NCBI GenBank assembly: GCA_019054805.1
Contig: JAHQIY010000001.1
Coordinates: forward strand, 11,670,501-11,734,500
Direction: 5' to 3'
From: Brachionus manjavacas
Taxonomy: Eukaryota > Rotifera > Eurotatoria > Ploima > Brachionidae
Length of the DNA: 64,000 nucleotides
Part shown: positions 9,218 through 64,000 of the stretch, piece by piece
How positions within the stretch are numbered: position 1 is the stretch's first letter
How the letters are laid out: each line of letters starts with the position of its first letter
Program-made: the position numbers and the translations under genes
Notes under the pieces: model-generated
Database searches by the model: none
Told to the model about the DNA's origin: nothing
What the model saw: the letters and a program-made list of their open reading frames with translations, nothing else

Positions 9218-9900
9218 GCACACAATTTACCTGTAAATAAACAAAAAAATTTTCTTGTGTATATAAAATAATTAGTTATTTAGCCACAAATTGACAATAT
9301 TTTTTTGTTTATTCTTTACATTGAAATCCATCGAAAAAATATAATTGAAGCTCATCAAATCAATTAATTAGGAACAAGCTTGAATAAGAACATATAAAAT
9401 ATAATAAGCCAAGTGTAGATAGTTTCATTTCAAAAGAGCGTGTGGTCGATGAAGAGCATATACAAGTAATACCTTCGAAAATTAATCCTAGTGTACTTAG
9501 TTGTGCTTTTGTGAATGAAAATAATGAAATATCTTCTTTAGTTTCAAGTTTCTTCACTAGTGATGCTCTCTTAATGTTGCAAAATACATTATCAGCATTA
9601 AGATCACATGGTCAATTAAATTCTTGCAACTCTTGTTCTTTATCTTGCGACTCTAAGTTTATCGTTTGTAGTTCTTGTAATAATTATTTTCATTTAAAAT
9701 GTGTTAAAAAAGCTTATGCTCCTAAGATTAAAAAATGGCTTTGTGCTAATTGTAACTCTAATTAATTAATCTAAATTTGTTAATCTTATTTTTTTTTATT
9801 TTTTAATATAACTTGTGTCTAAATAAATAAAAAAATTTCAAATCCACATCCACTTTTTGTGTGTATCAATTTTTGTTTATTTATCCATAAAATGTGTGAA
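9218..9900 (+). mobile_element. possible TIR-bounded element carrying a PHD-finger ORF
   Basis: Imperfect inverted repeats flank the PHD-finger frame. CACACAATTTACC plus TAAATAAACAAAAA on the left matches the complement of the segment near 9862-9899 on the right at about 19 of 24 positions. This suggests a short non-autonomous transposon that picked up, or always carried, the PHD coding segment. AT richness makes chance matches of this kind more likely, and no target duplication was established. Confidence 0.35.
9388..9765 (+). CDS. PHD-finger protein fragment (no ATG in frame)
   Basis: The frame is open from just after a TAA at 9385-9387 to a TAA after 9765, about 125 codons. The C-terminal 50 residues form a PHD-type zinc finger: CNSC, a spaced Cys, CSSC, then FHLKCV and a terminal WLCANC. 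The order Cys4-His-Cys3 and the Trp two residues before the last Cys pair are typical of the family, which usually binds histone tails or forms part of retroelement proteins. There is no ATG before the finger region except late (around SFFTSDALLM), so this is either the 3' exon of a spliced gene, a transposon-borne fragment, or a decayed copy. It ends directly after the finger. I cannot assign a host gene. Confidence 0.55.
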   Translation, partial: EHIKYNKPSVDSFISKERVVDEEHIQVIPSKINPSVLSCAFVNENNEISSLVSSFFTSDALLMLQNTLSALRSHGQLNSCNSCSLSCDSKFIVCSSCNNYFHLKCVKKAYAPKIKKWLCANCNSN

Positions 9901-19613: not shown

Positions 19614-22600
19614 TCAAACAAGTGTCTCTTGCTCACCGATTGTGTTAAATTTAGATTTGTCATAGTATTTCGAGCACAATTTGGACGAGTTGACACGGTA
19701 TGCTTCGCTTTGCTCCGAATTATCCAAGTTTAAATTAGACAAACTTCGAATGGACTTGGACATAACAATTCGTTCGCTTTTGTTGTCACCAACTATTGAA
19801 TCAGTTTGTCTTATTCTAGGCCTTTGATTTGGGCCCTGATTTTGAATCATCAGCAGCAAGGAGCCTTGGTTCTGTACCGGTTTGGTGTAAAAATTCTCAC
19901 TCAAATTTTCACTATATTTATAGGGCTCACTGATTCTCTTGGGCTTGCGGACACTCTGTCCTACTGGTGAGTGCGATGGTGAATTGACAAAGCAGATGGT
20001 TTCGTTGTGATAATTCAGATTGTTGGAAATTTTGTGCAGCTTGGTTTTGGATGAGCGGATGCGAGCTGAGTTGCCATTGTCTATGAAGTCTACATTTTCA
20101 TTCAAATTTTTCTGTCTTAATGAACTAACTGATGAGGACTGGATCAATCGATCCAAGTCGTAGTTAGACGAGTAAAACGATCCGGACGAAGACGATTCTT
20201 CGCTCGGATTGTGCTTAGGTGCTTGATTGTTCGAGTCCAAACCTGTCGGATATTCACTGTTTTGTTCAAGGGCTAAACTAGATGGAATCGGGTCCAAAAT
20301 GGTCACTCTGTTGGAAAAAAATTAGAAAAATTTTATAAAAATTAATCGAGAATTTACCCAATCTGGGATGAAATTTTTCGGTTTAATATTAGTTCAGCCT
20401 CACTCGGTGTTATGTTGTTGATGGTCTGGATAAGTTCATTGTGTAATAATGAATCAATCTTAATAAATAAATTGAATAAAAAATTCAAAAATATTTTTTT
20501 ATTAAATTAAAATAAGGAGAATTATTTTGATGATTATTAGTTACTTAAAAATTAGCTTTGTTGTTTTTTTTTTAATTATTTTCTTATTTTTTAAACATCG
20601 ATTTATTGAATAAAGTTTAATGAAATTATTGTTTTTAAATTAACTTGTGCCATATATTTCATAAGGCCAAGGATCTTATGAAATATATGATCAGCTACTT
20701 TTACAAATCTTGACTTGCCCGACAGGCTTCTCTAGGATTTTTTTTTCAAGATTCCTTTCCGAATTCTTCTAAAATTAAGAGATATAAAAATATTAAGATT
20801 TTTTTCGAGTAGAGTCAAAATGGAACGACCCGTCAGAGGAAATTGCCAGTTCTAAATCAATCAACAGTTTCAAATCAAGTATAGATAATGAATTGTTTGG
20901 CAATGGGTAAAACAAGAGAAGAAAGACTGTCAAAGCCCTTCATGAGCTAAATGCTGACAATCATTTACCACAGTCTCAATACTACTACTACAATTATGAA
21001 ATAAAATCAAATTGTTGATTTAAATTTCTTAAATATTCTCAAGTAAAGATTGTTATAATTTTCTTAAAGAATCAGTTATAAGTTATAATGTTTTTGTTGT
21101 GTAATTTTTAGTACCCGACAATAGCGACACCTTACTTTTCGATTCAAAATTTTATTATCTAAAAAGATCAAAAATCCTTTTTTGATAAAAAAAGTAAGTC
21201 TTAAATTCTTTTAAAAAATTAAATTAACTTTCAGAATCAAGAAAAAAATGAAAATAAACACATAAGGTTAACACATTAATACCTAAAATAGTATTAATGG
21301 TCAATGACAGAAAAAAATTATCTACTTTTCTATATCCCAGAGTTAAAACTAATTAAATTTTCTATAAAAACTATGTTTCTATAGCATCCAAATTTTTTGA
21401 CTCGTTTTCTAAAAATTTAAATCAGTCATCTTTTTGTAAAAAAATTTGATTAATCAATTTAGAAAAATAAATTTTTAAATTATTGACAAAAAATATTTTA
21501 AGTCAAATTAATAAGTTGTCTTTGAGGTTGAATTCAATTAAATTATTTTTGAATTTTTGAACATTATAAACAACAATTCTAGGTAGATGTTACTAAAAGC
21601 AATCAAGGAATATTTTGTAAATCTCAGTGAACGTCATATTCTGATCAATATTAAATTATGTCATTTTCATTTTATCATTTTAATTTCCGAAAAGTGTACT
21701 TAAAGCTCAAGTCAATTTTCTAATATATTTAACTTAAAGTAAGATCGATAATTGATCGCTTCTTCTAAAATTCTGAACTCAGTCGGTTTCTTAAAAAAAT
21801 TTAAATTAAAAAAATAATTTATTAAAAATTACCAATCATTAAAATCAAATAGCAATTTATTTATTGATTAATATATTTAAAAAATAAAAATTTCTTCAGA
21901 AAAATGCTTGATTAAAGTCAAAATTTTGCAGAATTTTTGTTTACTAAAAAATTAAAGCCAATTTTTCTTTTTTGAATTAAAAAAAATCAATTATAAATAA
22001 TTTATTATAAATATATATATATTGATATTTTAGTTTTTGGATTTAAAATTTTTAATTTTGATATATTGTATAAAAATATATTATTGCAGAAATTGTGCAA
22101 TGCTATTGTAAAATTTTTGTAGTTAATTTTTTTTTACTTAATATATTGAAGTTTTAAATCATAAATTAATCTTTGTTATTACAAAAAACTTTTTACGTCA
22201 TAATTTTAGCTAATATTATATAAGAACTAATAGAGACGCCAACATATCAAGACGTCATTATTTTTATTTATACTTTGGATTTAATTGATAAGGCTGGAAA
22301 TTTATTTAGAATGCAGATGCCTATTAACAAAAAAACATCTAAAAATATCTCATCAATGCTAACATCAATCAAAAATAAATTTATAGCTAAATTTCAGAGC
22401 CTTGTTAGTTTAAAAATAGCTTAAGCAAACTAATTTATTTGGTGTATGAATCGTAATTTTTTTAATTTAATGTTTTCTTTAACTCCCCAAAAATTTCCAA
22501 CTTTTAATTTAATTGAAAAAAATTTTTTTTTCTAATTAAAAAAATTAAATAAAAAATAGCTTACATTAAAAATCAAACTTTGGTTTTCTATTAAAAATTT

Positions 22601-25600
22601 GGTAACTGAAATGACCGAATCAATATCGTCGATGATATTGTACTTGTCGTTCTGCAGCTCATTGGGCTTGGTGTTAAGTGATATTTGTGAAAGCTTGTGT
22701 TTTTTGAGCAAATTTGGACCAAAAACCATGGCCAGATTGAACGCGTCCATTTTATTGCCGCCAACAATTTTGTCCCTCTGACTCACTGGCTCGGCATGCG
22801 ACTTAATTCGATCCAACAGCTTTAACAACACTTCTAATGTGTCTCGATTTGGCACCGGCAAAAGACATATTAAGTAGCGAGTCATTTCGAGCCTCAGAGC
22901 TCTGTTGGTAATTTCTTAAAAATTTAAAATTAACCTATCTTTTCAATTTAAACTGTGGTCAATTTACTGTTTGTGGCTAAAAAGCTCGAGTATAGATCAC
23001 GAGTCAGTAGTGGCTCCGGCAACGAGCGCAAGTACTCTTTGAGCAGACAAGCAGCATCGTTTGTGTTAAAATGCTCTCCCATGTCAATATTTTTACCATT
23101 GTCATACATTTCTTTGAGCTTTTGAGAAAAAAAATAAATTAAAAAAAAATAAAAACAACAAAAAATTTTTATTAATTAATAAAAAAATAGAAATTACTTC
23201 TTTTATTCTTTTTTTTGAAGAGTCTATTCGGAAAATGCCGACAACATCGAGACCATAGTCACTGATGTGTTTGCAACACGACTTGACAATGTTGGGCACC
23301 AGACCTTCGCTGCGTATGGACAAGTTCTGGCTATTGTTGCTCGGGTCTATTTTGCTTTTGTCGGTGGGGCTTTTGGCTGAGTTTTTTTTTGCAGTCGAAT
23401 TCTTGAGGTCCAATGCTTCGAACAGAACCGAATTTCGCTTGGCGTGGTCATGCTCAATGTTTTGGCGCATTTTGACTTTTTGCTCGCCATTCAGTATGTT
23501 CAGGTCATTCTTGGACGCGATCAAAAGATTAGTGGTGTTGGACTTCCATCTTTTGTTCACAGTAAGAGATGCATTTTTTTTTTGCTCTGGATGAACGCTT
23601 TTTTTCAAGTCGTTAAGAATACATTTGTACAAAGTCTGGCCGAATACCAACTCGGCATTGTCTTTCTGGCCCTTTTTGAAAAAATAATTCTCTTTTATGT
23701 CCTCGAAGAATTTGAAGTCAACCGAGCGGCTGCGGATCGCCGTCGATGATATGTTTTTGGTTTTTATGGTTTTCATTGATTCGTCTTTGGGAATACACAG
23801 CGACTTTAGGCCCAGCTCTTTGGCCGAGTTCTGCTCGGATATAATCTGAAGTTTGTTAAAGCAAATTTGTTTCAAATACTTAAGTTCGATTAGAGTCAAA
23901 AATTTGACTTGAATGTCGTTCAGCTTTATTTTCCTGGCTTGGTCGGCTGCATCGCCCATCGATGAGCACGACGAGGCCGAGGCCATTTTTTCGACTGGTC
24001 CTGTCATGTACCAACACTCCTCAGCCTAGAAAATCAGGAATTTGTTTAATCCAAAGTTCTCAATTTAAAATAATAAAAAAATTCTCAACATAATCAAAAG
24101 GAAGTTAAAATAAATCAACTCTATGCAAATAATTTCCGCAATAAAAGTTTATCGGTGTGTTTTTTATTAAATAATTTTATTTTGGGTGAAAAATTTTATC
24201 AGTAAAAGTGGAAAATTAATTTTTCTCTTTAACAAACAAAATTCCAAATTAATTGATATGAACAGATCAAACAACTTTTTTTGTTGTCTGATGTAACTGA
24301 ACATCTTTCCGACGCATAAATTCAAAACAGGGTGTACCCTTGAATTTAATTAATTGCTAACAGAGTTGTCTAAAACCGGTCAGATTAGAAAAAAAAAAAT
24401 TTTTAATTTTGAAAAATTTTTTTTTAATAAAAAAGCAATTTTGAAAATAATTTTTTAGCTGAGAGCTTGAAATTATTTGAATTTACTAGAGTTTTAAAAA
24501 AAAAAGCTCTAATGTATTAATTCAGAAACCAAATTAACTTGAGAAAAATTAAAAAATTTATTATGATTAATGGTAAATTGTTGAACCATCTAGTAAATAC
24601 TGCTTTGAATATTTGAAACATTTGAACATAGTTCAATCAATTGAGTAAGCTTAAAATAATTAAATATCCCGCTATCATTTTCGCCAAATTTCTTAATTAT
24701 TTATCTCTAGTTAAAAAAATAACTATTAACAAAAAAATAATTTAAAATTATCAAACACTTCCCACTCAAAAATGTAATTATCAAATTCTTGCATACTCGT
24801 AATTTCAGGTAAACCGAAAGCCTGTTTGAACAAAAAATAATTTAATTATAATCAATTCCTGGAAAATTAAGGAAGCTCTTAATGTCACGTTTTATTAAAT
24901 TTTATGATTAAATAATTTTTAATGTCAAGAATGTGAGCTCTTTCAATCAACTGTGGTCTCAAGAACTCTACTTTAGTCAAACTATATAATAGATTATTCT
25001 TTTTAAAAGTCAAATTGACATGACATTTTCTAAAGAAGCTTTTTTTGACCCATATTAAGTTTCATTATTTTAAATTAATGTTTGTCTTAATTAAAAAAGA
25101 CCACAAAAAAAACAAAAAGGCAAAGTTTCTTCAAATAGTATTTTTTAACAATCAAATAAAAAATAGCTTATTTTCTAAAGGGAAAAATGTTTCATTCAAA
25201 AATTGCTTTTGATTTATTTTTTGCGATTTTACAGTACCTTAACTGAAATTATTCTATGTCAAACAAAACTGTTCCCCTTGTTGCTCCTAGAAGAGGTAAA
25301 ATTATTTTAATTTTTCAAAAATTTTTTTAGAATTTAAATTTTTGTTTAAACTAAAAAAAATGGTTAAAATAATCCAAAATCTGACTCGAACCAACAAGTC
25401 TTAATAATATCACTTTAAGAAGAAAGGTATCAATTTAGTTCCTTTTTGAAATTTTAACCATAAATAAAAATTTTGTTAGCTTTTTTTAAAAAAGATTATT
25501 TTTACACCTTTAATTGAAATCTATAAATAGAGATATGTTTTTATATGGAATTATTTTTTACTTGAGTAAAAAATTATTTTTAATTTCATTGTTAAAATAA

Positions 25601-48930: not shown

Positions 48931-51900
48931 CTATTCATTAAGATTGTCTCGTAAATCTTTTCGAAATTGGTCCTCAACAATTCTCATCAAATCAATGTTT
49001 TTCCTTTCGTAATAATTGGGCACCTTTGTTTCAAATTGACTACTGATCAAAAGCTCATCCTTAAGTGTAGTTCGTTTTTTGACGGACATGAGAACTTGGT
49101 CAGCTATTTTTGTCTCAGTGTTGGTCAAAATGGATTTGTTGTGAACTGAAATACTTTCTGGCGGTAAGCTTTCGAGCCTCATAGCTTTTAATTCATCATC
49201 GGCAGACGACTCTCTGTTCATTTGAGACTTGGGCAGTCCATTCTTTCTCAAATCACCAAGTCTGTAAGCAAACCTACAGTAAACATTTGTCTTGCTCGAC
49301 TCAACTTTTTCCTTTTTTATCAAAGGTTCAATCTTGGAATTAATTTGACCAACTTTAAGAGCCTCAAGCACATTTGGATTTTTCTCGCTTTCCTGAAAAA
49401 TAACCAAACAAGCCCAGCTTATTTGGCGAAATTCCTCATTTTGCTTGTCATTTAGGCTTTTGCAAATCCTGACCAGACCTTTCACGGCCATGTAGCGAAC
49501 CATCCAATCCGACTGGGAGTTTGCGCTAAATTTTGCCGTGTCCAACAGCCCAAAAACTTGGGGATCACCATTATTGAACACATCAGCAGCCTCTTTATGG
49601 TTTCCCAAGAGCGCTTTTCGCTTAAGCAGCGGGCTCGAACCATTAATGCAAATATCTCCCAAAAGCTCCACATAAACACAAGTCAGTTCAATGGACCATT
49701 TAAACAGACCAGAAGATTTAAGATTTTTACGTGGTGAAATCTCATCACGTATGAGTCTGTCTTCGTAGTCATCGTCCTTAAACGAAAGCTGTAAAAATAT
49801 GTCCAGAGCTTTCATGTTGATCTTTGAGCATTCGGCCAGAATGTACAATGATAGGCTGGCGTCCAGCCAGTTCTCATCGCGGAAAATCAGTGAATCAAAT
49901 GTGGTCAAAAATTCCTCAAGTGTTTTCCTGGCATATTTTGATTTAAGCAATTTGAACAGTTCAATGGTGGACCACAAAAATTGGTCTAGCATATTGAGGC
50001 GTCTCTCTGAATCGGTAAAATAACTAGCTGCTGTGGTGTTTGTTTCCGATTTTGGATGTTTCACATGACCACTGACTATTTCTCCTATTTTGATCATGAA
50101 CTCGATGTACAAAAATGCATCGGGATAGGGCGAATAGGCAGCTTTTAAATCTGAAAATCCTTGCAAATAAATTGACAAATGGTCCACCAGATCATGCTGG
50201 TCATCGAGGCTTTTGTCCATGAAATGGATGTAAATGCGCTCGAAAATCATTTTTCCCACTTTGAGTAGTTTTATTTCAAAGGCTCTGAGAAATGGCTGGT
50301 TGACTGTGTCAGTCCGGATCCAGTAGATAATGGTCTCGGCAAGAAAGAAGAGTGTTGGAATTTGAGAAGAAGAAAGCTTGGCGTTTTCTAACGACTCGAT
50401 GAACAGGTCCATGCATTCTTCCTGAAATGGCGAGTCACACTGCATCAGTTGGGATAATTCGGCCCAGCATAGTTGAATGCTTAGATCATCAATTGTGTCA
50501 AAATTGGAGAGCTTTTTCTAAAAGAAACTATTTTATTAATTTTCATTAATTAATTAGTTAAAAAATAATCAAAAGTTAAAATTTTTCAAAAATTTTGATC
50601 ATTTTTTACTTATAATATTTACTCTAAAAACTTATAAAATTCACGAAATTCAAAACTTTAGTGCTATCTGAATTTCACATTTTTGACTCAAAATTCGTAA
50701 TCTACGCCCTCAAAACACCAAAAAAAAAATTTTTTTGAAGGGGCAAAAAAAAATTTTTTACACCCAGGGTTCCAAAAATAGCAAACCCTTTAAAAATTTC
50801 TTCTTTAAGACTCAAAATCTCAAAGATAAAACTTTAATATACTAAAAAAAGTATATATATTCTGAAAGAGCATAAAATTTTCTACATGCTATATTAATTT
50901 AGAAGAAAAAAAAAAGGGTGTGGCGGTTTTTGTTGGCTAAAAAAATGAAAAAATGTGTTTTTACTGATTTAAATCGTATCTCCTCCGAGGGATCAATTAT
51001 GACCCGATATTTTTTTTTTTTAAATCTAGACAAAATTCTGAACAGTTCTATGATTTTACTTTTTAATTTATTGCTTTATTTTTCTTAAAAAATGTTTTCA
51101 AATCATGTGATTTTTAACAAATTTGTCAAATTTGAATTATTTTATTAAAATTTTTAGATTAAACTATTGAAATCGATATTTTTAGGTGCTCAACTACTGT
51201 TTTTTACGATTTTCCTGAAAAATATGCTTTTAGGACTTGACCGTATGTCGCACCACTCATGTTACCTACTAAATCCCGCCAAAATCGTCGATTAATTTTT
51301 TTGAAAGCTCAGAACGTCGATTTATTTCGATTTTGGCGGGATTTAGTAGGTAACATGAGTGGTGCGACATACGGTCAAGTCCTAAAAGCATATTTTTCAG
51401 GAAAATCGTAAAAAACAGTAGTTGAGCACCTAAAAATATCGAATTCTTCAGTTTAATCATTCCACAACGCAATATATACCAAAGAGTAAACAGATTTCCA
51501 CTAGTAGAAAGAGATTAAAGGTTAACCAAAAATTTATTTTAAACCACAATATATTTGTGGCGAACAAGAAGAGAAAATAAACTTTTTTTTTTTAATTAAA
51601 TAATTTTCTCAAAAAAATTATTAGTTTTAAATTAATATAATTATTTAAATTAATTAAATTAATATTTCTGAAGTCTGTTTAAATGAGTACCAACAGCAAC
51701 AACATTTACTGGTTTGTTCACTCGTCTGTAAGTTTTAAATTTTGTATTGAAAAATTAAAATTTTAAGTTTTTTTGTAAATTTTTTTGTTTGTTTGTCGAG
51801 AGAATTTTTGTTAATAAAATTTAGTGATGAACAGATATTTGATTGTGGGTGACAAATTTTAATTTGTGTAGAATGAGATACATTTTGGAAACCAGGGTAT

Positions 51901-54299: not shown

Positions 54300-54535
54300 A
54301 ACTCGATTTATAAGCTACAATCAGATAAAGATAAAATTTGCAAGTGGTCAAAAGAGTGGTCGACTCAGCTGAATGAAGATAAATGCAAAGTTGTAAAAAT
54401 TGGGAACAATATTCCGAATTTGATTGAAACACTTGAGAAAGTCAAAATGCGAAAAGGATTTGGGAATTTGCAAACAGAATGATTTAGAATGGGAAACACA
54501 AGTCAGAAAAAATAAAAACTAAAGAAAACAGAATG
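54300..54535 (+). pseudogene. LINE reverse-transcriptase thumb fragment
   Basis: The frame reads LQSDKDKICKWSKEWSTQL then NEDKCKVVKIGNN, the LQxDLxxLxxWSxxWxLxFNxxKCxVxxxG block that follows the ADD motif in jockey/CR1-type LINE reverse transcriptases. A shifted frame then gives NDLEWETQVRK. It is a short relic with a frameshift. Confidence 0.6.
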
Positions 54536-54770
54536 TTGAGTCAAACTGTGGTTATTGCTTTTAAATAAGATTCAACTGATGTCCAAGATAAATTTTACAA
54601 GTAAAATTAAATAAAATACAAATAAAATTATAAGGCTTCAAAATTTAAAAAACTTTATTTTTGAAATTTATTTTATTACTTAATCTTACTTTTTGCTACA
54701 AAAATTTTAGATCAAACTTTTTTATTCTTTTTACTAGAAAGGAATTATTTTGATTATGATTTAGATAGGA

Positions 54771-54776
54771 AAAAAA
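54771..54776 (-). terminator. RNA polymerase III T-run terminator
   Basis: Six A residues on the plus strand read TTTTTT on the minus strand immediately after the tRNA-Gly 3' end. Confidence 0.7.
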
Positions 54777-54847
54777 TGCACTGGCCGGGAATCGAACCCG
54801 GGCCGCCCGCGTGGCAGGCGAGCATTCTACCACTGAACCACCAGTGC
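54777..54847 (-). tRNA. tRNA-Gly(GCC): tRNA-Gly (anticodon GCC)
   Basis: The minus strand gives a 71-base cloverleaf. The acceptor stem is GCACTGG/CCAGTGC with discriminator A. The A box lies in GGTTCAGTGGTAGAATGC, the anticodon GCC in CTGCCACG, and the B box is GGTTCGATTCC. It closely matches animal tRNA-Gly-GCC as known. There is no intron, and CCA is not encoded. A run of six T directly after the 3' end is the RNA polymerase III terminator. Confidence 0.97.
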
Positions 54848-55844
54848 TTGATCTTATACAAAACCCTTTTTTTTTATAAAATCGATAAAAATCAAATTTT
54901 TTAAAAAAGTCAAATAAAAAAATATTTTGAAAGTCCAAAAAAAAAATTACTATGCATATTTAAAAAATATTTTATTTTGTCAAATTAATTCAAAAAAAAT
55001 TTTTAAGAAGTCAAAAACTTGATAAATTAAGAATACCTTTAGAATAAAAATAAAAATTCGATGGAATCGGATGATATCGATTTTGGTATTGGATAACAAG
55101 CAAAATTATTAATTCTAATTTTTTAACTTGGTTACTGATTCAAAGCTGTTACAATAATTATACAAAAAAGTTTTTAATTTAAATTTGGTAATTAGCTAAC
55201 AAATTAATATTTAATAAAAAATGGTGATCATAGATAAAATAATAAAGCCTGTTTTTAACTGTTTTATTAATTAAAAAAAAAATTTCTTTTAAATGAATGC
55301 AAACTTTGACCAAATGACCACATGTCTCTCGAACAAGCCTATCAAAAAGAAGATAAAAAAAAATTATCCTCTCAATATCTTAGGACTTAAATTGGACCTA
55401 TCTGAGTTTTGTATTTTGATAGACAAAATTTTCATTCTTTTGCCATTAATAATTAAAATCAATTAAACAAAAGCCACTTAATTATATTTTAATAAATGAT
55501 TGAGAATAAATTTTTTAAAATTCAATTTTTTACAATTATTTTAGCTATTTTTTGAATCGAATAATTGATCAACTATTCAAATCTATTTTTTGTGTAAATT
55601 AAACAATCATGAAAATTAAATCTTTACCACGCTTTTAATCGTAGGCTCAACCATCTAATATTTTCGATTATTAATTCAGACACGAATAATGAATGTATTT
55701 AAGATTGTCTTATCTAAACAATTCAGAAACAATAAACCATGATATTGACAAAAAAAAATTGAAAATTTCCAACCATTCCAAATTTAACCAGGCATGAAAT
55801 AAATTTAACTTAACTAGAAATAATTTTTTTTAATTCAATCAATC

Positions 55845-55852
55845 TATAAATA
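55845..55852 (+). promoter_or_regulatory. TATA box of Cys/Pro-repeat gene, copy 1
   Basis: TATAAATA lies 80 bp before the start codon of the Cys/Pro-rich gene and is the obvious core-promoter candidate. The predicted start of transcription is near 55876. Confidence 0.5.
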
Positions 55853-55931
55853 AGTAATATTTTCCTCAAAGCTGAATCAGAAAAATTAGATTTTTAAATC
55901 CTCTCATCTCTCTACAAAAATAAAATAAAAA

Positions 55932-56264
55932 ATGTTTGGTGATTTTGGTTTATCATTCGGTGGTTCATGTGGTTCATGCCCACCACCGTGTCCACCACCA
56001 ATGCCTTTGCCATGTCCAAAGCCATGTCCACCACCAATGCCTTTGCCATGCCCACCACCATGCCCACCACCAATGCCTTTGCCATGTCCAAAGCCATGCC
56101 CACCACCATGTCCACCACCATGCCCACCACCAATGCCTTTGCCATGTCCAAAGCCATGCCCACCACCATGTCCACCACCATGCCCACCACCGATGCCATT
56201 GCCATTACCTCCAGTTAGCTCTTGCTCTCCTTGTAGTGGTTCTACTGGATTTTCATTTTTCTAA
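55932..56264 (+). CDS. Cys/Pro-rich repeat protein, copy 1
   Basis: This single-exon frame encodes 110 residues. It begins MFGDFGLSFGGSCGSC, continues as tandem PPPMPLPCPKPC and PPPC units, and ends SSCSPCSGSTGFSFF. About 17 cysteines and over 40 prolines make it a cross-linkable structural protein by composition, as in small sperm-tail, cuticle or eggshell proteins. There is no signal peptide. The start is the first ATG after a TATA box, and AATAAA follows the stop by about 30 bases. The opposite strand is also open over the same repeat and would encode Gly/His repeats (GGGHGFGHGKGIGGGH) in an exon-like frame. Which strand is truly coding needs RNA evidence. I favour this strand because start, promoter and poly(A) signal are all in place. 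No family is assigned. Confidence 0.55.
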   Translation: MFGDFGLSFGGSCGSCPPPCPPPMPLPCPKPCPPPMPLPCPPPCPPPMPLPCPKPCPPPCPPPCPPPMPLPCPKPCPPPCPPPCPPPMPLPLPPVSSCSPCSGSTGFSFF

Positions 56265-56296
56265 ATTAGTTTTTTATTAATTTTTGAATAATAAGA

Positions 56297-56302
56297 AATA
56301 AA
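56297..56302 (+). promoter_or_regulatory. poly(A) signal, Cys/Pro-repeat gene copy 1
   Basis: AATAAA lies about 30 bases past the stop codon; the mirror copy is at 61427-61432 on the minus strand. Confidence 0.45.
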
Positions 56303-56871
56303 TGGCCATTTAATCGTCTTATTATACTTATTGAATAAATTTTGAAATATTAATTCTTTTCTTTTTTTCGATGTTTTTAATACTAACTAGAATAAAAAAA
56401 TCGCATCCGAGAATCGAACAACACTAATTAAAAAATATCTACCGAAATATAACACAGAATTGATTTTGCTCAAAATTTGTTTTAAAAAATAAAGTTATTG
56501 AAAAAAACTTTATTTAAATAATAATTATTTTACCCATTAAATATTGATAGTATAGAAAATTAATGCATAAAATATTAAATTTAATGCGGTCATTGTGAAA
56601 AAATTATTTTGACGCAAAAAAACGAAATGCTGAATACTTTTTATGATAAGATTTATAAGTTATCATTTTCCTGTCTTGAACTTGTGATATATTTTTTTTG
56701 ATTATGAAAGTTTTGTTGGTCTGGCGAATGATTTTTGAATTATTAGTTTCGACGATTTGAGATCTTGTTTGATGTCTTAATTTTCGATCGTTGCATTTAT
56801 TTTTGTTGAAATGACCAAAGAATTGATATGTAAAAGTTAACTTACTACTAAATAAAAAGATTTAGGGATGA
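56303..56871. other. inner part of left arm and start of the LINE
   Basis: Up to 56654 this is arm sequence shared with the right arm. Beyond it the sequence is unique. No intact endonuclease domain is seen before the reverse-transcriptase frame, so the 5' half of that LINE is missing or decayed. Confidence 0.45.
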
Positions 56872-58776
56872 TATATTCCGTCAAATAATGCTAAACGCGA
56901 ATTTAGAGCAAAAAAAAGATTAAACATAACACTGAAACGAGATCGGTGCTTAAGAAATCTAAAATCCTTGTTCCAGATGGATAAAACAGGCTTTTGGAAA
57001 AAGATTAAATCGATGAATAGTAAGCAGCAAAATGTCGATATTGAGATAGCAAAAATTAAAGATGTATTTTTTAAACAATTTAACGAAAGAATTAGTCAAA
57101 ATTCGCCAAATGAACTTAAAAACATAAAAATACTGAATGAATTTGTTTGCAAGCACAAAAATCAAGTACACGATTACAGATTAGATCCGGAAAACTTTAA
57201 AGAGCTGATAGACAATCTGCCGAATGGTAAAAGTTGTGGTATAGGTGGTGTTACTTATGAGATGCTAAAGTACTGTTCGAACGATTATGTAAGTAAATAC
57301 TTAACAATTATTTTTGAGAAAATGATCCGTTTTCAACAAACCCCGTACCTATTTAACATTTCTATAATTAAGCCATTGATTAAAGACCCTAAAAGCTCCA
57401 ATAACGATTTAAATAATATTCGTCCCATTGCAGTATCTGATGCTTTCTCAAACTTATTCGAAGCTGTTCTTCTAAAAGAAATAGAAAAGTATTATACTGA
57501 TAATGAAAAACAGTTCGGGTTTAAGAAAAAATCGTCTTGTGGTCATGCGATTTTTGTTTTAAAACAAGCGATTAAATTGAGTAGATTGTTGAAAAAAAGA
57601 CTGTATGTTTGCGCAGTAGATGCCTCAAAGGCGTTCGATAAAGTAAATCGTACAAACCTCTGGACCAAAATGATTCTCAAAAATATTAACCCAGCAATTG
57701 TACTTGCTACATACAATTATTACAATCAGTCAGTTATGTTGGTTGAAAATGACAACGAATTTTCAAGCATCTTCAAAACATCTATGGGTGTGCGCCAAGG
57801 TGGAATTATGTCACCAAAATTATTCTTAATATACGTTGATGATCTGATCAAACAAGTAGAAGAGCTCGAACATGGCCTCGAAGTAAAAAATGGAAAGAAA
57901 ATTGACATTATTTTCTGCGCCGATGGTATACTTTTGATAAGTACGACAAAATTAGGGATCCAAAAACAACTTGATGTTGTACAAAGCTATGGAGAAATAG
58001 ACGAAATCAAGTATAACCCAAGCAAAACATCTTTCATAATCTTCAATTATAATATTAAATTAACCAAAAAAGAAAAAAGTCAGGACCTGTGGCAGCAAAA
58101 CTTGCTGTTAAATGGCGACGCAGTTGAAAAAATAAAAAAAATGAAGTACTTAGGTATAATATTGACAGATGATGGTAAAAATAGCGAACACATTACTAAG
58201 TGTAAAAACTCTGCACTTAAAGCACACAATAAACTAAAAAAACTTTCAATTATATCCAACGAGATCCACCCAACTATGAAGGGACACCTTTATAACACAT
58301 TCATAAGACCAGTCATACACTACGGACTCGAAAACTCTCACCTAAATAAAAGCGAGAGGTTAGTATTAAAAAGACTAGAAGGGAACTTGGTCAAAATGAT
58401 GATTGGTATACCAACAAGGTGTAGATCTACTGATCTTTTGTGTGCGCTTAAAATCGAACCAACAATGAAACGTTTAGACGCGCTAAAATGCGACTTTTAC
58501 TTGCGTTTAAAGAATAATAGTTATACAAACGCGCTCCTTGAATCTATAGAAATCTTAGAAGAAAGTTTGCCAAACGAAATTAACGAAATAAAGTCAGCTT
58601 ATAACATCAACGAATCAGAATTGCATACTGTATGCCAAACGATAAAATACCACACCAAAACTGAGTTCAAAGCCACTAAGCTTAATAATCCGAACGTAAC
58701 CGAACTGCACAAACTATTCAACACAAAAAACAGACAGGAATTATCAAAAAAAATCTTCGAAATTATAAAATTTTAA
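56872..58776 (+). CDS. LINE reverse transcriptase, long open frame, altered active site
   Basis: The frame is open for about 635 codons (first ATG at 56977). It has the non-LTR reverse-transcriptase blocks in order: LIKDPKSSNNDLNNIRPIAV, AVDASKAFDKVNR with catalytic Asp (57619), GVRQGGIMSPKLFLIYVDDL, then FCADGILLIS, KYNPSKT, KMKYLGIIL and the thumb. In the active-site box the usual ADD reads ADG (codon 57925-57927, GGT), so the second catalytic Asp is lost, which should abolish polymerisation. The endonuclease and ORF1 are absent. Long, almost undamaged coding sequence shows that the copy is young despite the lethal change. It sits inside the spacer of the inverted repeat. Confidence 0.85.
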   Translation, partial: YIPSNNAKREFRAKKRLNITLKRDRCLRNLKSLFQMDKTGFWKKIKSMNSKQQNVDIEIAKIKDVFFKQFNERISQNSPNELKNIKILNEFVCKHKNQVHDYRLDPENFKELIDNLPNGKSCGIGGVTYEMLKYCSNDYVSKYLTIIFEKMIRFQQTPYLFNISIIKPLIKDPKSSNNDLNNIRPIAVSDAFSNLFEAVLLKEIEKYYTDNEKQFGFKKKSSCGHAIFVLKQAIKLSRLLKKRLYVCAVDASKAFDKVNRTNLWTKMILKNINPAIVLATYNYYNQSVMLVENDNEFSSIFKTSMGVRQGGIMSPKLFLIYVDDLIKQVEELEHGLEVKNGKKIDIIFCADGILLISTTKLGIQKQLDVVQSYGEIDEIKYNPSKTSFIIFNYNIKLTKKEKSQDLWQQNLLLNGDAVEKIKKMKYLGIILTDDGKNSEHITKCKNSALKAHNKLKKLSIISNEIHPTMKGHLYNTFIRPVIHYGLENSHLNKSERLVLKRLEGNLVKMMIGIPTRCRSTDLLCALKIEPTMKRLDALKCDFYLRLKNNSYTNALLESIEILEESLPNEINEIKSAYNINESELHTVCQTIKYHTKTEFKATKLNNPNVTELHKLFNTKNRQELSKKIFEIIKF

Positions 58777-58955
58777 ACTTTACTTATCTCTGTACAAATT
58801 TTTTCTTTCTACGTAAAAGACACCTATTTTTATTTTTATTTTTTTATCTTTTTTTTTTTTTTTTTACTTTTTTATTTTTGTAATTGGTACGCTTTATTTT
58901 ACAGCGTACCGGAAAGTGGTCGCATAGCGGCCTTGGCATTAGGCTAAATAATAAT
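58777..58955 (+). mobile_element. LINE 3' untranslated region with stem-loop and AAT tail
   Basis: After the stop codon is a T-rich stretch, then a perfect stem-loop (58886-58910, GGTACGCT/AGCGTACC, 9-base loop), then a second GC-rich near-hairpin (GGTCGC/GCGGCC), and an (AAT)n run ending the element. A conserved 3' stem-loop next to a short repeat tail is how several LINE families mark their RNA for the reverse transcriptase. Confidence 0.6.
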
Positions 58956-59533
58956 AATAATATTCCGATTTATAAAATCTTAAAAGGCTATGATAGCATT
59001 TAATGTAATGAACTTCTCCCCGAATCAATTATGCAATTTCGTCATCAAGAACGCTCAAAATGCATGGTAAGAGAAGGAGTCAAAAATTGTTTTCATCTTT
59101 TTCTTTTTTTGACAAATCGTGTGTTTAAATTAACATTTATATAACTGCTGATGATTGAAGAGGCTTTACCTGTTTTGGGTCGTAGTATTTTTTACTACGC
59201 CTACTACTACTAAAACTGAATAATTCATAATGGGCAAAAATATTTAAGTGAAACTCTGATTAGTTTGAAAAATGCTTCCTATCAGTCACAAAAAATCTGA
59301 GTATTAGTTATAAAAATACCACAACGAACTAAAACAAAATCTTCAAATTAAAATTCTCAACTTAAAATATGATACTCCATCCAACATAATGCATCATTAA
59401 AGTTCAGTCTAGAATCGACTTTTTAATTTTAAAAAGAGATATGCTGGGACAAGACTGAGTTATGCTATTCCATTGGTTTTCAGTAGGGCTGGTAGTACGG
59501 TATCTTAAAACCTGTTTCAAATCGCATTTTTGC
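58956..59533. other. spacer between two convergent LINE relics
   Basis: A TACTACTACTA-type tail (near 59193-59214) and a weak HSIPLV-like LINE frame (RLSYAIPLVFSRAG, near 59440-59500) suggest further small LINE scraps on the plus strand. No gene is seen. Confidence 0.35.
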
Positions 59534-61010
59534 TTAACCGAGTTTATAGAAACGCGTATAAGGTGTGTTGTACCACGTTATTTCGTCTTTGTTCTTGATG
59601 ACTTTTAAAAGTTGGATTAAGTCACCATGCTGTGGTCTTGTCTCCAGTGATGTAAGACCCATCCGCACAATTCTGCTCTCGTACTCCATGTCTTTCAAAG
59701 CAGTAGGGACTCTCGTTTCTCTTTTCAAGAATATTTAAACTGTGTCAATATCTCTTCTGAAATATTATTTTTTAAGATCATCGGCAAAGAGTTTGCTTGT
59801 GTGTTTCAAGTGACTAAGTAGGTCATTGATGAAGGTTGCGAAGAGAATTGGGCATAAGACACTACCCTGGTGGACTTCTGAGGTTACATCTTTCCAATTT
59901 GAAACGTGTGGACCTGTAACCACGCTGCTTCCTACCCTCAAGATAAAATTTAATGCAGTCGAGAAGTTAGTCCGTGGATGCCAACAATTCTTAGCTTATT
60001 AATCAGCCTATCATGAGGAACCTTGTCGAACTTGGAACAAACCCATGCTGTCGTGGAGCAAGTAATCTATTTGCGCATAAATGCAACATTATTGAGTCAC
60101 GGACAAGAGATTCTTTTATTCTGCAGACCACTTATGTCAATGAAATCGGACGTTAATTGAACGCATCGACACAAATACCTTTCTTGAAAACTGGGCTTGC
60201 GTTTGCCAAACTCCATTTCATAGGAAGAGCTGAGGTGATGAGGGACAAGTTGAAGATATGAGCAAGTGGCCGAGCGATCTCCGTGGCACACTTCTTAAGA
60301 ACGTTAGGGTGAATTCCGTCCAAAGCGATCGATTTAGATGCGTTTTACTTGACAAGTTTGTTTGAGATCATGTTTTCGTTCCTGACAAGCTTCTCAATTG
60401 TTGCAGTGGTATGCTCGTGGTCAACGTCTGTCTCAACCTGCAAATTGACAATTAAGATTATCGGTTATGTCGCAGGGCGCTGTTAACGAAAAGACGTTTC
60501 CTATTTTTATCTAGCTTCACTAACTCGTAGGTCATCCAGGACGGTTTGCAGCCCCGCACAGTATCTGCTCTTAGGAATGTTTTTACAAAATAAACGATTA
60601 TTTATGTTTAGGCTTTTGTAATGTTTACATTAGTACCATTGGGCCCGTCTATCTGATCTTTTCGTAAGACGTATTGGAGCAGCTATTTATGTTCCTTGTT
60701 AACTTAAACGCTCATGGTTAAGTTAATCAACTTTCCAGTGATATCGACAAAGATGTCACTATATCACAGCTTCGTTAATGTGTGAGGTATCGAGAATGAG
60801 AGCCGACTGCAGCGCTGAGTACTTTTCTTTAGTGTGATTAAACCGGATCGATCCGATATTCGGAGGTTTGATAAGTTTAGGTGGACCACAAACTAAATTA
60901 CCGCATAGACTTGTCAAGCCTTACCAAATGGAGCGCCGATCAGATGTATCTGATCAATTCTATCTGGCCAGTCACTGATTACAAGGTCAAGAACGTTGAT
61001 CGGAAAGAAC
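59534..61010 (-). pseudogene. second LINE (endonuclease to RT C-terminus), decayed
   Basis: On the minus strand, from 61.0 kb downwards, pieces appear in the canonical order. First is NVLDLVISD with HLIGAPFG (end of the endonuclease), then LDGIHPNVLKKC and SLITSALPMKW, then FDKVPHDRLINKLRIVGIHG. After these come HQGSVLCPILFATFINDLL with LFADDLK (catalytic box intact), and last the C-terminal RMGLTSLETRPQHGDLIQL. Stops and shifts separate them. This is a jockey/CR1-like family different from the LINE at 56872-58776. The upstream end is cut by the right arm boundary. Confidence 0.75.
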
Positions 61011-61426
61011 ATGAAGTACCGCACAATTGATAAAGTGAAAATTTATCGAGCGTGTCAAGATTAACCAAAATTAAAAATCTTATCATAAAAAGTATTAAGC
61101 ATTTCGTTTTTTTGCGTCAAAATAATTTTTTCACAATGACCGCATTAAATTTATTATTTTATGCATTAATTTTCTATACTATCAATATTTAATGTGTAAA
61201 ATAATTATTATTTAAATAAAATTTTTTTCAATAACTTTATTTTTTAAAACAAATTTTGAGCAAAATCAATTCTGTGTTATATTTCGGTAGATATTTTTTA
61301 ATTAGTGTTGTTCGATTCTCGGATGCGATTTTTTTATTCTAGTTAGTATTAAAAACATCGAAAAAAAGAAAAGAATTAATATTTCAAAATTTATTCAATA
61401 AGTATAATAAGACGATTAAATGGCCA

Positions 61427-61432
61427 TTTATT
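61427..61432 (-). promoter_or_regulatory. poly(A) signal, Cys/Pro-repeat gene copy 2
   Basis: TTTATT on the plus strand reads AATAAA on the minus strand, about 30 bases past the stop codon. Confidence 0.45.
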
Positions 61433-61464
61433 TCTTATTATTCAAAAATTAATAAAAAACTAAT

Positions 61465-61797
61465 TTAGAAAAATGAAAATCCAGTAGAACCACTACAAGG
61501 AGAGCAAGAGCTAACTGGAGGTAATGGCAATGGCATCGGTGGTGGGCATGGTGGTGGACATGGTGGTGGGCATGGCTTTGGACATGGCAAAGGCATTGGT
61601 GGTGGGCATGGTGGTGGACATGGTGGTGGGCATGGCTTTGGACATGGCAAAGGCATTGGTGGTGGGCATGGTGGTGGGCATGGCAAAGGCATTGGTGGTG
61701 GACATGGCTTTGGACATGGCAAAGGCATTGGTGGTGGACACGGTGGTGGGCATGAACCACATGAACCACCGAATGATAAACCAAAATCACCAAACAT
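61465..61797 (-). CDS. Cys/Pro-rich repeat protein, copy 2
   Basis: The protein is the same as that from 55932-56264, residue for residue over all 110 positions, in the opposite orientation. It has the same TATA box 80 bp upstream and the same poly(A) signal. Two such perfectly matching copies in mirror arrangement are either very recent or kept alike by gene conversion between the arms. The complementary strand is again open as a Gly/His-repeat frame with an AG acceptor just before it (about 61468-61469), so the coding strand is not proven. Confidence 0.55.
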   Translation of the reverse strand: MFGDFGLSFGGSCGSCPPPCPPPMPLPCPKPCPPPMPLPCPPPCPPPMPLPCPKPCPPPCPPPCPPPMPLPCPKPCPPPCPPPCPPPMPLPLPPVSSCSPCSGSTGFSFF

Positions 61798-61876
61798 TTT
61801 TTATTGTATTTTTGTAGAGAGATGAGAGGATTTAAAAATCTAATTTTTCTGATTCAGCTTTGTCGAAAATATTACT

Positions 61877-61884
61877 TATTTATA
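61877..61884 (-). promoter_or_regulatory. TATA box of Cys/Pro-repeat gene, copy 2
   Basis: TATTTATA on the plus strand reads TATAAATA on the minus strand, 80 bp before the start codon, mirroring the left arm. Confidence 0.5.
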
Positions 61885-63054
61885 GATTGATTGAATTAAA
61901 AAAAAATATTTCTAGTTAAGTTAAATTTATTTCATGCCTGGTTAAATTTGGAATGGTTGGAAATTTTCAATTTTTTTTTGTCAATATCATGGTTTATTGT
62001 TTCTGAATTGTTTAGATAAGACAATCTTAAATACATTCATTATTCGTGTCTGAATTAATAATCGAAAATATTAGATGGTTGAGCCTACGATTAAAAGCGT
62101 GGTAAAGATTTAATTTTCATGATTGTTTAATTTACACAAAAAATAGATTTGAATAGTTGATCAATTATTCGATTCAAAAAATAGCTAAAATAATTGTAAA
62201 AAATTGAATTTTAAAAAATTTATTCTCAATCATTTATTAAAATATAATTAAGTGGCTTTTGTTTAATTGATTTTAATTATTAATGGCAAAAGAATGAAAA
62301 TTTTGTCTATCAAAATACAAAACTCAGATAGGTCCAATTTAAGTCCTAAGATATTGAGAGGATAATTTTTTTTTATCTTCTTTTTGATAGGCTTGTTCGA
62401 GAGACATGTGGTCATTTGGTCAAAGTTTGCATTCATTTAAAAGAAATTTTTTTTTTAATTAATAAAACAGTTAAAAACAGGCTTTATTATTTTATCTATG
62501 ATCACCATTTTTTTTAAATATTAATTTGTTAGCTAATTTCCAAATTTAAATTAAAAACTTTTTTGTATAATTATTGTAACAGCTTTGAATCAGTAACCAA
62601 GTTAAAAAATTAGAATTAATAATTTTGCTTGTTATCCAATACCAACATCGATATTTTTAAAATCGATATCATCCGATTCCATCGAAATTTTATTTTTATT
62701 CTTAAGACATTCAAAATTTGTCAAGTTTTTGACTTCTAAAAAAATTTTTTTGAATTAATTTGACAAAATAAAATACTTTTTAAATATGCATAGTAATTTT
62801 TTCTGTTTGAATTACAAAATCCATCCAATCTTGAAATCACATTCAAAAAGTGCGATGTTTCAAATTATTTTTTCAGCTTCAAAAAAAAAATAAATTTTAG
62901 ATAATATTGCAAACATCGAACAAAAACTTGGAGTTGTTTTTTAAATTTTGACTTTGGGTTTGTGAAATAAAGATCCTTATAAGATAAAATTTGTCGTTTA
63001 AGAAACTATCTTCTCTCTGTTTTACAATTTTCAATGGGAGCCTATAAGTAAAAA

Positions 63055-64000
63055 ACTGATTCGCACACGGCTAAAAAGGAAGCATTGTAACACATCTATC
63101 ATACAATGCTATGCCCTAACTAACGAAGCAAGTGAAGAGGAAAAGTCTATATTCTACGAACAGCTACAAGGAACTTTAGATAAAGTTCCTCGACATGACT
63201 TCATGATAGTCATGGGCGATATGAATGCGAAAGTTGGAAGCGATAACTATGTGTTTGAAAAATGCATGGGAACCCAAGGTTGCGGAAAAGAAATAACAAT
63301 GGTGAAATTTTAGTATATCTGTGTATGATTTACAACCTCCGTATTGGTGAAGCAATGTTTCAGCACAATAATATACACAAACTGACATGGCGATCTCCAG
63401 ATAAAACTTTAAACCATATTGGTCATATAATGATCAATAAGAGACGGAGGTCTTCCCTAAATGACATCAAAGTCTTTAGAGGAGCTGACATATATAGTGA
63501 TCATTATCTGGTAGGAGCGTGTATAAAGCTGAAACTAAATAAAGCCTATCAGAGAAATGCAGAAAAGAAATACGATATTGGACGTCTAAATGACCCCAAA
63601 CGAAATTAGGATACAGCACAAAGCTTAGAAAAAGCCTACAAAAACTTGAACAACAAGGGCTTTCGAATATACAGACAAGATAGTCATAAATTCGGGAAGC
63701 CTATAGCAAAACAGCAGAAGAGGTTCTCGGTTCAAAAACATCAAAGAGTTGTAAAACATCAAAGGAAAAGATGGATATCCGACGAGACATGGGCACTGAT
63801 AGCTGAAAGAGGGGAAAACAAAGCGAGAATGCTTTAAGCAAAGTCTGACCGAATCCGCGAAAAATTAGAAACATCATATGGAATAAAGAACAGCCTTGTG
63901 AAGAAGGGAGCAAGGCGTGATAAGAGGAACTAAATAAACCAGTGTGTAAGCGAAGAAAAAGAAGCCAGCTCAAAAGGGGACCTACATAAATTACAAAAGA
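63055..64000 (+). pseudogene. LINE endonuclease and linker fragment, runs off the window
   Basis: Plus-strand frames read NTSIIQCYALTNEASEEEKS, then FMIVMGDMNAKVG (endonuclease GDxNAxxG box), then KLTWRSPDKTLNHIGHIMIN and VFRGADIYSDHYLV (SDH box). This is an APE-type endonuclease of RTE-like LINEs, often annotated in animals as craniofacial development protein 2-like. A frameshift near 63295 and stops at 63607 and 63836 break it. The linker before the reverse transcriptase (RKRWISDETWALIAERG) follows. It belongs to another family than the two LINEs in the spacer. Confidence 0.8.

Follow-up and report, generated by a model that had tools for sequence, protein, structure and literature searches.

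Signs of gene conversion in a palindrome with twin Cys/Pro-repeat genes in the rotifer Brachionus manjavacas, apparently one case of a family pattern

Two copies of a small Cys/Pro-repeat gene lie in opposite orientation within a palindrome at positions 54941..62802 of a 64,000-nucleotide stretch of the Brachionus manjavacas genome (hereafter the window), and their predicted proteins are identical. Published mlh3 and vasa sites have exact matches in this genome, in keeping with B. manjavacas or a very near relative. What keeps these twins alike, and does their arrangement say anything about their function? Most discussion of conversion-maintained palindromes concerns sex chromosomes and testis genes. 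A preliminary description of the locus named gene conversion or strong selection as expected causes of the identity and raised the idea of a reproductive role.

The two inverted arms of about 1.7 kb that had been described were confirmed at 54941-56661 and 61068-62802. Identity amounts to 99% over the 1,451 nt of the core (55211-56661/61068-62518), 98% in the next segment outward (55074-55220/62508-62654) and 93% in the outer segment inside the window (54941-55084/62659-62802); a wider arm alignment of 1,754 columns gave 97.6%. Inverted arms of at least 97% identity hence surround a short spacer of 4,406 nt between the inner arm ends (56662..61067, no strand). The left arm can be divided into a diverged part (93%; 54941..55084, + strand) and a core termed homogenised (55085..56661, + strand), which shows 11 mismatches to the right arm in 1,576 columns. 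The right arm correspondingly comprises a homogenised core (61068..62643, - strand) and a diverged part (93%; 62644..62802, - strand) that includes 15 bp without left-arm counterpart. As found by blastn, the palindrome runs on outward, with partner pieces beyond the window end. The left-arm piece 54622..54940 (+) matches window-equivalent positions 66312-65961 (87.8%, 352 columns, 10 mismatches plus gaps), and the outermost mirrored piece 54487..54603 (+) matches 66912-66796 (93.2% over 117). Among these partner pieces is a second tRNA-Gly, the mirror copy (window-equivalent 66074-66144) of a tRNA-Gly(GCC) gene at 54777..54847 on the - strand that was detected with ARAGORN and Rfam RF00005.

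Mobile DNA occupies both the spacer and the right arm. The spacer carries two convergent LINE pieces, as described before. The piece on the + strand is not simply a relic, because its reverse-transcriptase frame (56872..58776; RVT_1, 3.1e-21) is open for 634 codons. The - strand piece (59407..60920, approximate limits) is a relic broken over several frames; one part of it matched RVT_1 at 1.4e-4, a value that does not reach the curated cut-off. The right arm is split by a 3.1-kb insertion whose first part occupies 62803..64000 (no strand) and which continues to window-equivalent position ~65957. It contains LINE endonuclease/RT-like pieces, assigned by eye, and the one insertion piece searched against Pfam (63259-63606) returned no match. 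A 17-bp overlap of two BLAST pieces had suggested a LINE-type target-site duplication, which was rejected because the letters instead show inverted repeats of ~70 bp at the ends of the insert.

A palindrome of this kind could in principle be created by a chimaeric inverted read joined during assembly. This is highly improbable here, given 45 substitutions in 2,174 aligned columns plus several indels between the arms and an insertion that splits the right arm alone. Nor is the region an assembly doubling, since the neighbouring TMEM232 exon is single-copy, a second open reading frame of the window has only partial matches of 69-72% elsewhere in the genome, and the arms differ from each other. 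Assembly polishing, for its part, is able to make near-identical arms look more identical.

Each arm holds the same single-exon gene, on the + strand at 55932..56264 and on the - strand at 61465..61797, encoding identical proteins of 110 amino acids. As the preliminary description had stated, the TATA box TATAAATA (55845..55852, + strand; 61877..61884, - strand) and the poly(A) signal AATAAA (56297..56302, + strand; 61427..61432, - strand) are also identical in the two copies. The left TATA box lies within a block, AATCTATAAATAAG.

When identity was followed along the aligned arms, as had been suggested, mismatches proved strongly patchy, with 34 in 598 columns of the outer pieces versus 11 in 1,576 of the inner ones (Fisher 1.7e-11). 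The longest perfect runs extend over 632 and 584 columns, lengths that none of 20,000 permutations equalled when the whole alignment was shuffled (p 5e-5); for the core alone the value was p 1e-4. These tests assume independent sites. Within the outer pieces, a near-perfect patch of ~200 bp around the tRNA (1/200 mismatches) is flanked by stretches at 89-93% (33/398). The coding sequence is unchanged at all 333 aligned bases and the outer arm sequence has drifted, exactly as first noted. Perfection does, however, extend beyond the coding part: the upstream non-coding stretch 55216-55822 (607/607) and 243 bp downstream of the gene are equally perfect. Coding-specific selection was therefore rejected as the cause of arm identity; in line with this, mismatches in the coding sequence (0/333) do not differ from those in the non-coding core (9/1,109; p 0.13). 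Arm-to-arm gene conversion, the other cause proposed, is supported by the patchy distribution as the process that keeps the twin genes nearly identical.

Alternatively, the arms might be so similar simply because the inverted duplication is young, the outer pieces then representing older repeats or fast-changing DNA. The 11 differences in 1,576 core sites are compatible with a recent origin, and faster change in the outer parts would fit site by site. Yet, the outer pieces continue the core in collinear, mirrored order and share a tRNA-Gly unit that has 30 matches in the genome and is identical over 202 bp in the two arms only; the 28 others are shorter, the longest spanning 139 bp at 84%. One age also does not fit a 200-bp near-perfect patch amid stretches of 89-93%, and gene tails elsewhere in the family independently point to conversion (see below). 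Recent duplication as the sole explanation hence appears unlikely.

With gene conversion as the preferred reading, the following history is probable. The locus would have originated when a single-exon gene with a TATA box, encoding a small protein, was duplicated in inverted orientation, after which the arms would have diverged by ~6-8% and one of them gained mobile DNA. Gene conversion would have replaced patches comprising the gene unit and the tRNA-Gly unit with the sequence of the other arm, and because of this overwriting the two genes would stay identical. A benefit of conversion might lie in gene dosage and uniform subunits.

The window gene belongs to a subfamily of 13 genes with common head and tail. 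Its most numerous close relatives, 10 of the 13, form a plain tandem array on C3 rather than a palindrome. The block AATCTATAAATAAG is unchanged in the eight subfamily genes that were aligned. Heads and tails of the window gene and the C3 array differ by nine synonymous changes in ~27 sites and six non-synonymous ones in ~84; this excess of synonymous over non-synonymous change per site, which refers to paralogues only, suggests that purifying selection may act on the protein.

Members of the wider Cys/Pro/VPVP family occur on C1, C3, C12 and C15, and a gene on C4 is alike by composition. Head-to-head A/B pairs were found for 22 of 23 A-type relatives, and the A/B blocks occur in both orientations, with 9 of 15 neighbouring blocks inverted. 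Inverted blocks of high identity lie at C1:11501278-11512580 (arms of at least 3.8 kb, 98.9%), C12:2734263-2747147 (4.2 kb, 99.7%), C12:2758224-2767690 (3.5 kb, 98.5%) and C12:3128633-3131999 with 3147300-3150668 (3.4 kb, 99.4%). Inverted arms of 8.5 kb at C12:3120741-3129221/3136701-3145204 contain A-gene tails only and no whole blocks. A and B genes have common 3' tails in the three clusters that were compared, with a distance of 0.003 between A and B within a cluster versus 0.162 between A genes of different clusters. Exon 1 behaves in the opposite manner in the two clusters measured, A genes of different clusters being ~90-91% identical and A and B of one cluster only 53-55%. The sharing of tails fades in the 3' UTR (A-B within cluster, 0.154). 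The window palindrome thus seems to exemplify a habit of the family and not to stand alone: in the wider family, A and B genes are paired head to head, their blocks face either way, some lie in high-identity palindromes, and A/B tails are shared within clusters.

What might such a protein do? It consists of 15% Cys and 47% Pro and is built from a head (MFG.FG.S...SCGSC), repeat units of the types PPPC, PKPC and MPLP, and a tail (SSCSPCSGS.GFS.F). No Pfam family was matched at E<=1 by the window protein or four relatives. Four PDB matches at E<=1 were set aside as probable low-complexity proline matches. Judged by hydropathy, no N-terminal hydrophobic stretch or signal peptide is apparent in the window, A or B types; the best 12-residue mean near the N-terminus ranges from 0.17 to 1.24, compared to 2.79 for a membrane-stretch control. 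The apparent lack of a signal peptide suggests a structural protein of the cytoplasm that is linked by disulfides. Within the integument, the skeletal layer (intracytoplasmic lamina/lorica) would be its most likely site, whereas male rods, sperm or egg envelopes are less likely. This assignment draws on the missing signal peptide, the composition and the chemistry of the lorica; the lorica is called chitin-containing in a passage of PMC5333405.

Taken together, we consider it reasonably probable that the locus arose by inverted duplication with patches of conversion, that it exemplifies a wider family pattern and that it encodes a cytoplasmic structural protein. A bolder version, tentative and rather doubtful at present, would see an undescribed intracellular armour superfamily that is inverted on two levels (gene pair and block) away from any sex chromosome. 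Conversion between inverted copies would keep tails identical within a cluster and heads distinct, so that A and B partners would always possess matching cross-linking ends, and the window palindrome would be a stripped-down single-gene form.

The reproductive role that the preliminary description derived from ampliconic testis genes and the neighbouring TMEM232 gene is unsupported. As a gene of cilia and flagella, TMEM232 reveals little about sex in an animal whose females also bear cilia. Still, an ampliconic male gene could encode a testis or sperm protein resembling Mst-CGP/SMCP, or a protein built into the stiff testicular rods with which males are thought to open the female integument. 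Other animals do have small Cys/Pro-rich proteins in their sperm tails. Against this stands the spread of the family over C1, C3, C12 and C15, along with the C4 gene alike by composition, and we know of no sex chromosomes in monogononts. Sex-chromosome palindromes often contain testis genes (passages of PMC3403216). B. manjavacas males are haploid (PMC10395877, in part). Excerpts of PMC13403294 state that, in the monogonont Asplanchnopus, the filament protein of these rods still awaits identification. They also describe the outer rod membranes as Golgi-derived, so that the rod contents might need a signal peptide, which was not seen here by hydropathy. A male function is hence improbable.

Among the matches listed in literature searches, neither a sequence-level account of rotifer lorica proteins nor a Brachionus study of sex-biased expression was found. 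Term checks (proline, keratin and lorica among others) of parts of PMC3701536, PMC10821554 and PMC5333405 yielded no such protein and one lorica passage, in PMC5333405. The terms palindrome, gene conversion and gene duplication had zero hits each in the portion of PMC6555955 covered. A section of PMC1925144 lists abundant transcripts, four of them without any match and none described as Cys/Pro-rich. On the basis of these searches alone, the Cys/Pro genes are undescribed. They supply candidates for rotifer structures, including male rod filaments that are without an identified protein in the excerpted text of PMC13403294, and B. manjavacas is editable with CRISPR (PMC10395877, in part). Repeated inversion of probable structural-protein genes in an animal with haploid males also makes it possible to ask whether palindromes can be driven by dosage and uniform subunits instead of sex-chromosome biology.

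Compared with known systems, the feature that fits a rotifer integument skeletal protein is the missing signal peptide, as judged by hydropathy. The SPRR/cornifin proteins of the mammalian cornified envelope are likewise small, lack a signal peptide, carry PKPC/PPPC-type repeats and are encoded in multigene clusters. In contrast to them, the window protein and four relatives match no cornifin/SPRR domain (0 Pfam families at E<=1), and its ends are rich in F, S, G and C instead of the Gln and Lys used by transglutaminase; the translation has no Q across all 110 residues and no K in head and tail. Short Cys/Pro-rich repeats and clustered genes are also typical of Drosophila Mst(3)CGP and mammalian SMCP sperm proteins, but the rotifer protein has no C-G-P repeat. 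The A/B relatives share head-to-head pairs, Cys-rich ends and A-B shared sequence with the HcA/HcB genes of the silkmoth high-cysteine chorion locus (passages of PMC4639761), so that an egg-envelope family of this style may be considered. This is distinctly unlikely, as neither a chorion domain or other Pfam match (window protein and four relatives) nor, by hydropathy, the signal peptide of a secreted chorion-type protein was apparent, while the blocks occur in both orientations and the window gene is unpaired, no head-to-head partner being present among the open reading frames listed nearby. Finally, the Brachionus palindromes differ from those of ampliconic genes on the primate Y and X in that the arms around these genes measure only ~1.5-4.2 kb, the subfamily is partly arranged in a tandem array, and the host has haploid males and, to our knowledge, no sex chromosome; both have in common high-identity inverted arms, multi-copy genes and signs of arm-to-arm conversion.

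The inverted repeat occupies the right part of the window (C1:11670501-11734500 of the assembly G000, in which genome searches covered 114.17 Mb on 61 contigs) and is built as the preliminary description had stated. A 40-nt mlh3 stretch and a 20-nt vasa site listed in PMC10395877 (Table 1) for Brachionus manjavacas are each present a single time in the genome with no mismatch, which indicates this species or one very closely related to it. Its main arms (55211-56661 and 61068-62518; 1,451 nt, 99% identity) are extended by stretches of 98% and 93% identity out to 54941 and 62802 and flank a spacer of 4,406 nt. Each arm contains one centre-facing copy of the Cys/Pro-repeat gene, a 110-aa open reading frame at 55932-56264 (+ strand) and 61465-61797 (- strand), respectively. 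The palindrome reaches past the window: counting on beyond position 64000, 54622-54940 is mirrored at 66312-65961 (87.8% over 352 columns including gaps) and the outermost pair is formed by 54487-54603 and 66912-66796 (93.2% over 117). The outer piece of both arms harbors an outward-directed tRNA-Gly(GCC). The respective 221-bp unit has 30 genome matches; between the two arms, identity extends over 202 bp, and the remaining 28 matches span at most 139 bp and mostly comprise the tRNA alone. Eight of the 30 tRNA-Gly(GCC)-like places cluster at C17:166346-334486.

Mobile or mobile-looking DNA is found in both the spacer and the right arm. The spacer encodes a LINE-type reverse transcriptase frame (56872-58776, + strand; 634 open codons; RVT_1, 3.1e-21) and a broken LINE-type frame on the - strand (~59407-60920), one piece of which matches RVT_1 below the cut-off (1.4e-4). 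For the former, at least 77 genome matches including itself were obtained, a lower bound because only 73 of 3,483 candidates were scored; among the matches listed, the next-best is 48% identical over almost the full length, and a C2 fragment of 176 aa shares 97% identity. The right arm is interrupted by ~3.1 kb of mobile-looking DNA from 62803 to ~65957 (~1957 of L051, the locus continuing the window rightward) with ~70-bp inverted repeats at its ends and LINE-like pieces within, one piece of which gave no match in a Pfam search.

The region is not doubled by assembly, as follows from two other ORFs of the window: TMEM232 (48934-50517; PF15877, 9.2e-56) matches only itself in the genome at the DNA level, and a second window ORF is represented by one full copy plus three partial matches of 69-72% on C5. 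Further Pfam assignments in the window are a rhodopsin-family receptor (1443-1910), a PHD finger (9388-9762), a RhoGAP in two pieces (22535-22915, 23105-24025) and, below its cut-off, DUF659 (17173-17904).

When the arms were aligned with the right-arm insertion excluded, 45 mismatches and eight reported gaps in 2,174 columns revealed a patchy divergence. In order, the segments contain 8/117, 11/97, 1/200 (the tRNA patch), 14/184, 1/130, 0/607, 4/109, 0/333 (the CDS), 0/243 and 6/154 mismatches. Outer segments thus differ at 34/598 and inner segments at 11/1,576 positions (Fisher p 1.7e-11), and the tRNA patch is set apart from its own flanks (p 1.7e-5). Assuming independent sites, as all these statistics do, none of 20,000 permutations of the full alignment attained the combined length of the two longest perfect stretches (632 + 584 columns; p 5e-5); within the core, this combined length gave p 1e-4 and the weaker bin-variance test p 0.011. 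The preliminary description had offered gene conversion or strong selection as the cause of the unchanged coding part. The CDS is indeed unchanged, yet it does not differ from the rest of the core (0/333 versus 9/1,109, p 0.13). The arms therefore support conversion, which is a likely account of their identity, and not selection on the coding part.

A protein search with the window protein retrieved 34 matches at E<=0.001. Thirteen genes share the head MFG.FG.S...SCGSC and the tail SSCSPCSGS.GFS.F: the two window copies, ten in a tandem array of ~1.8-kb units at C3:6400989-6417521 and one at C3:6873252-6873638. In all eight genes aligned upstream (both window copies, five of the ten array copies and the C3 singleton), AATCTATAAATAAG is unchanged, with the ATG ~75-90 bp downstream. 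Comparison of heads and tails between window and array yielded differences at 9 of ~27 synonymous and 6 of ~84 non-synonymous sites (Fisher 0.0012, counts rounded); two other paralogue comparisons were weaker (5/25 versus 7/86 and 7/26 versus 7/85). This suggests purifying selection on heads and tails.

The window protein consists of ~15% Cys and ~47% Pro; neither a hydrophobic N-terminus nor a Pfam family was found for it. This composition, the lack of an apparent signal peptide and known domain, the conserved TATA block and the many near-identical copies would be consistent with a structural protein that is abundant, cytoplasmic and disulfide-linked. Two other CPPPC-repeat proteins (positions 1378-1758 of locus L025 and 1068-2108 of locus L022), akin to the family by composition alone, begin with MGNRRSSC and MGSRNSRC; these starts resemble N-myristoylation signals and would be in line with membrane-side attachment. 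A role in the integument, at the intracytoplasmic lamina, is tentatively predicted. Older work described lorica proteins as keratin-like and soluble in reducing agent. The lorica has also been called chitin-containing (PMC5333405). Alternatively, the protein may serve in male rods, whose filament protein is described as unidentified for another monogonont in PMC13403294, or in egg envelopes.

Judged by heads, tails and repeat composition, the window type is probably related to a wider family, whose members on C12 and C1 carry a VPVP rod between Cys-rich ends. A-type genes begin with MASFxSS...SCGSC, while B-type genes, for which a first exon with seven coding bases is inferred, continue with the window-gene-like start MFGSFDSS...SCGSC. 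Exon searches located matches to the A first exon at 23 places (14 nearly full length, nine partial) and to the B second exon at 52. Using 23 hand-chosen rows of the 52, the nearest B partner was head-to-head for 22 of 23 A places, with 12 blocks oriented one way and ten the opposite way; neighbouring blocks are mutually inverted in 9 of 15 cases. In the sequence examined, whole family genes reside in inverted arms at C1:11501278-11512580 (at least 3.8 kb, limited by the sequence examined; 98.9%), C12:2734263-2747147 (4.2 kb, 99.7%), C12:2758224-2767690 (3.5 kb, 98.5%) and C12:3128633-3131999 with 3147300-3150668 (3.4 kb, 99.4%, 15 kb apart); those at C12:3120741-3129221/3136701-3145204 (8.5 kb, 99.2%) contain A-gene tails alone. 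By inspection, palindromes appear to be in excess in the family. The C3 array is a counter-example, being tandem throughout with 10/10 genes on one strand. Beside the C1 palindrome, a B-type second exon interrupted by a single in-frame TAG (C1:11499652-11499942) is possibly a pseudogene. Several family clusters occupy the final portion of their contigs, on C1 (11.50-11.87 Mb), C12 (1.98-3.15 Mb) and C15 (2.217-2.243 Mb); those on C3, C4 and at 4.59 Mb of C1 do not.

Among 24 genes from three of the five known C12 clusters, the 3′ coding tails of A and B genes within one cluster differ by a mean of only 0.003 (48 pairs), in contrast to 0.162 for A-A and 0.165 for B-B between clusters (48 pairs each). 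This sharing drops upstream of the tail (0.051) and in the 3′ UTR (0.154). For exon 1 the relation is reversed, with 89.7-91.1% (A-A) and 94.6-97.5% (B-B) identity between clusters versus 53-55% for A-B within a cluster (two clusters). Such incongruence is the pattern expected from conversion between inverted A and B genes. One A gene (C12:3136572-3136877; L045 6572-6877) lacks rod and intron and encodes a 101-aa head-plus-tail protein resembling the short window type, which suggests that the latter may have arisen by such a loss of rod and intron.

Nothing observed links the window locus to a sex chromosome or to testis, and neither an apparent signal peptide nor a chorion match in Pfam was found; on present evidence, it belongs neither to the sex-chromosome palindromes nor to the silkmoth chorion genes. 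Monogononts are not known to have sex chromosomes. B. manjavacas males are haploid according to PMC10395877. The layout of the window palindrome works like that of sex-chromosome palindromes as described in PMC3403216. The likeness to silkmoth HcA/HcB genes is confined to the layout of the A/B relatives: in PMC4639761, the silkmoth genes are described as strictly head-to-head, and the title of a reference therein speaks of sequence transfer between the HcA and HcB families.
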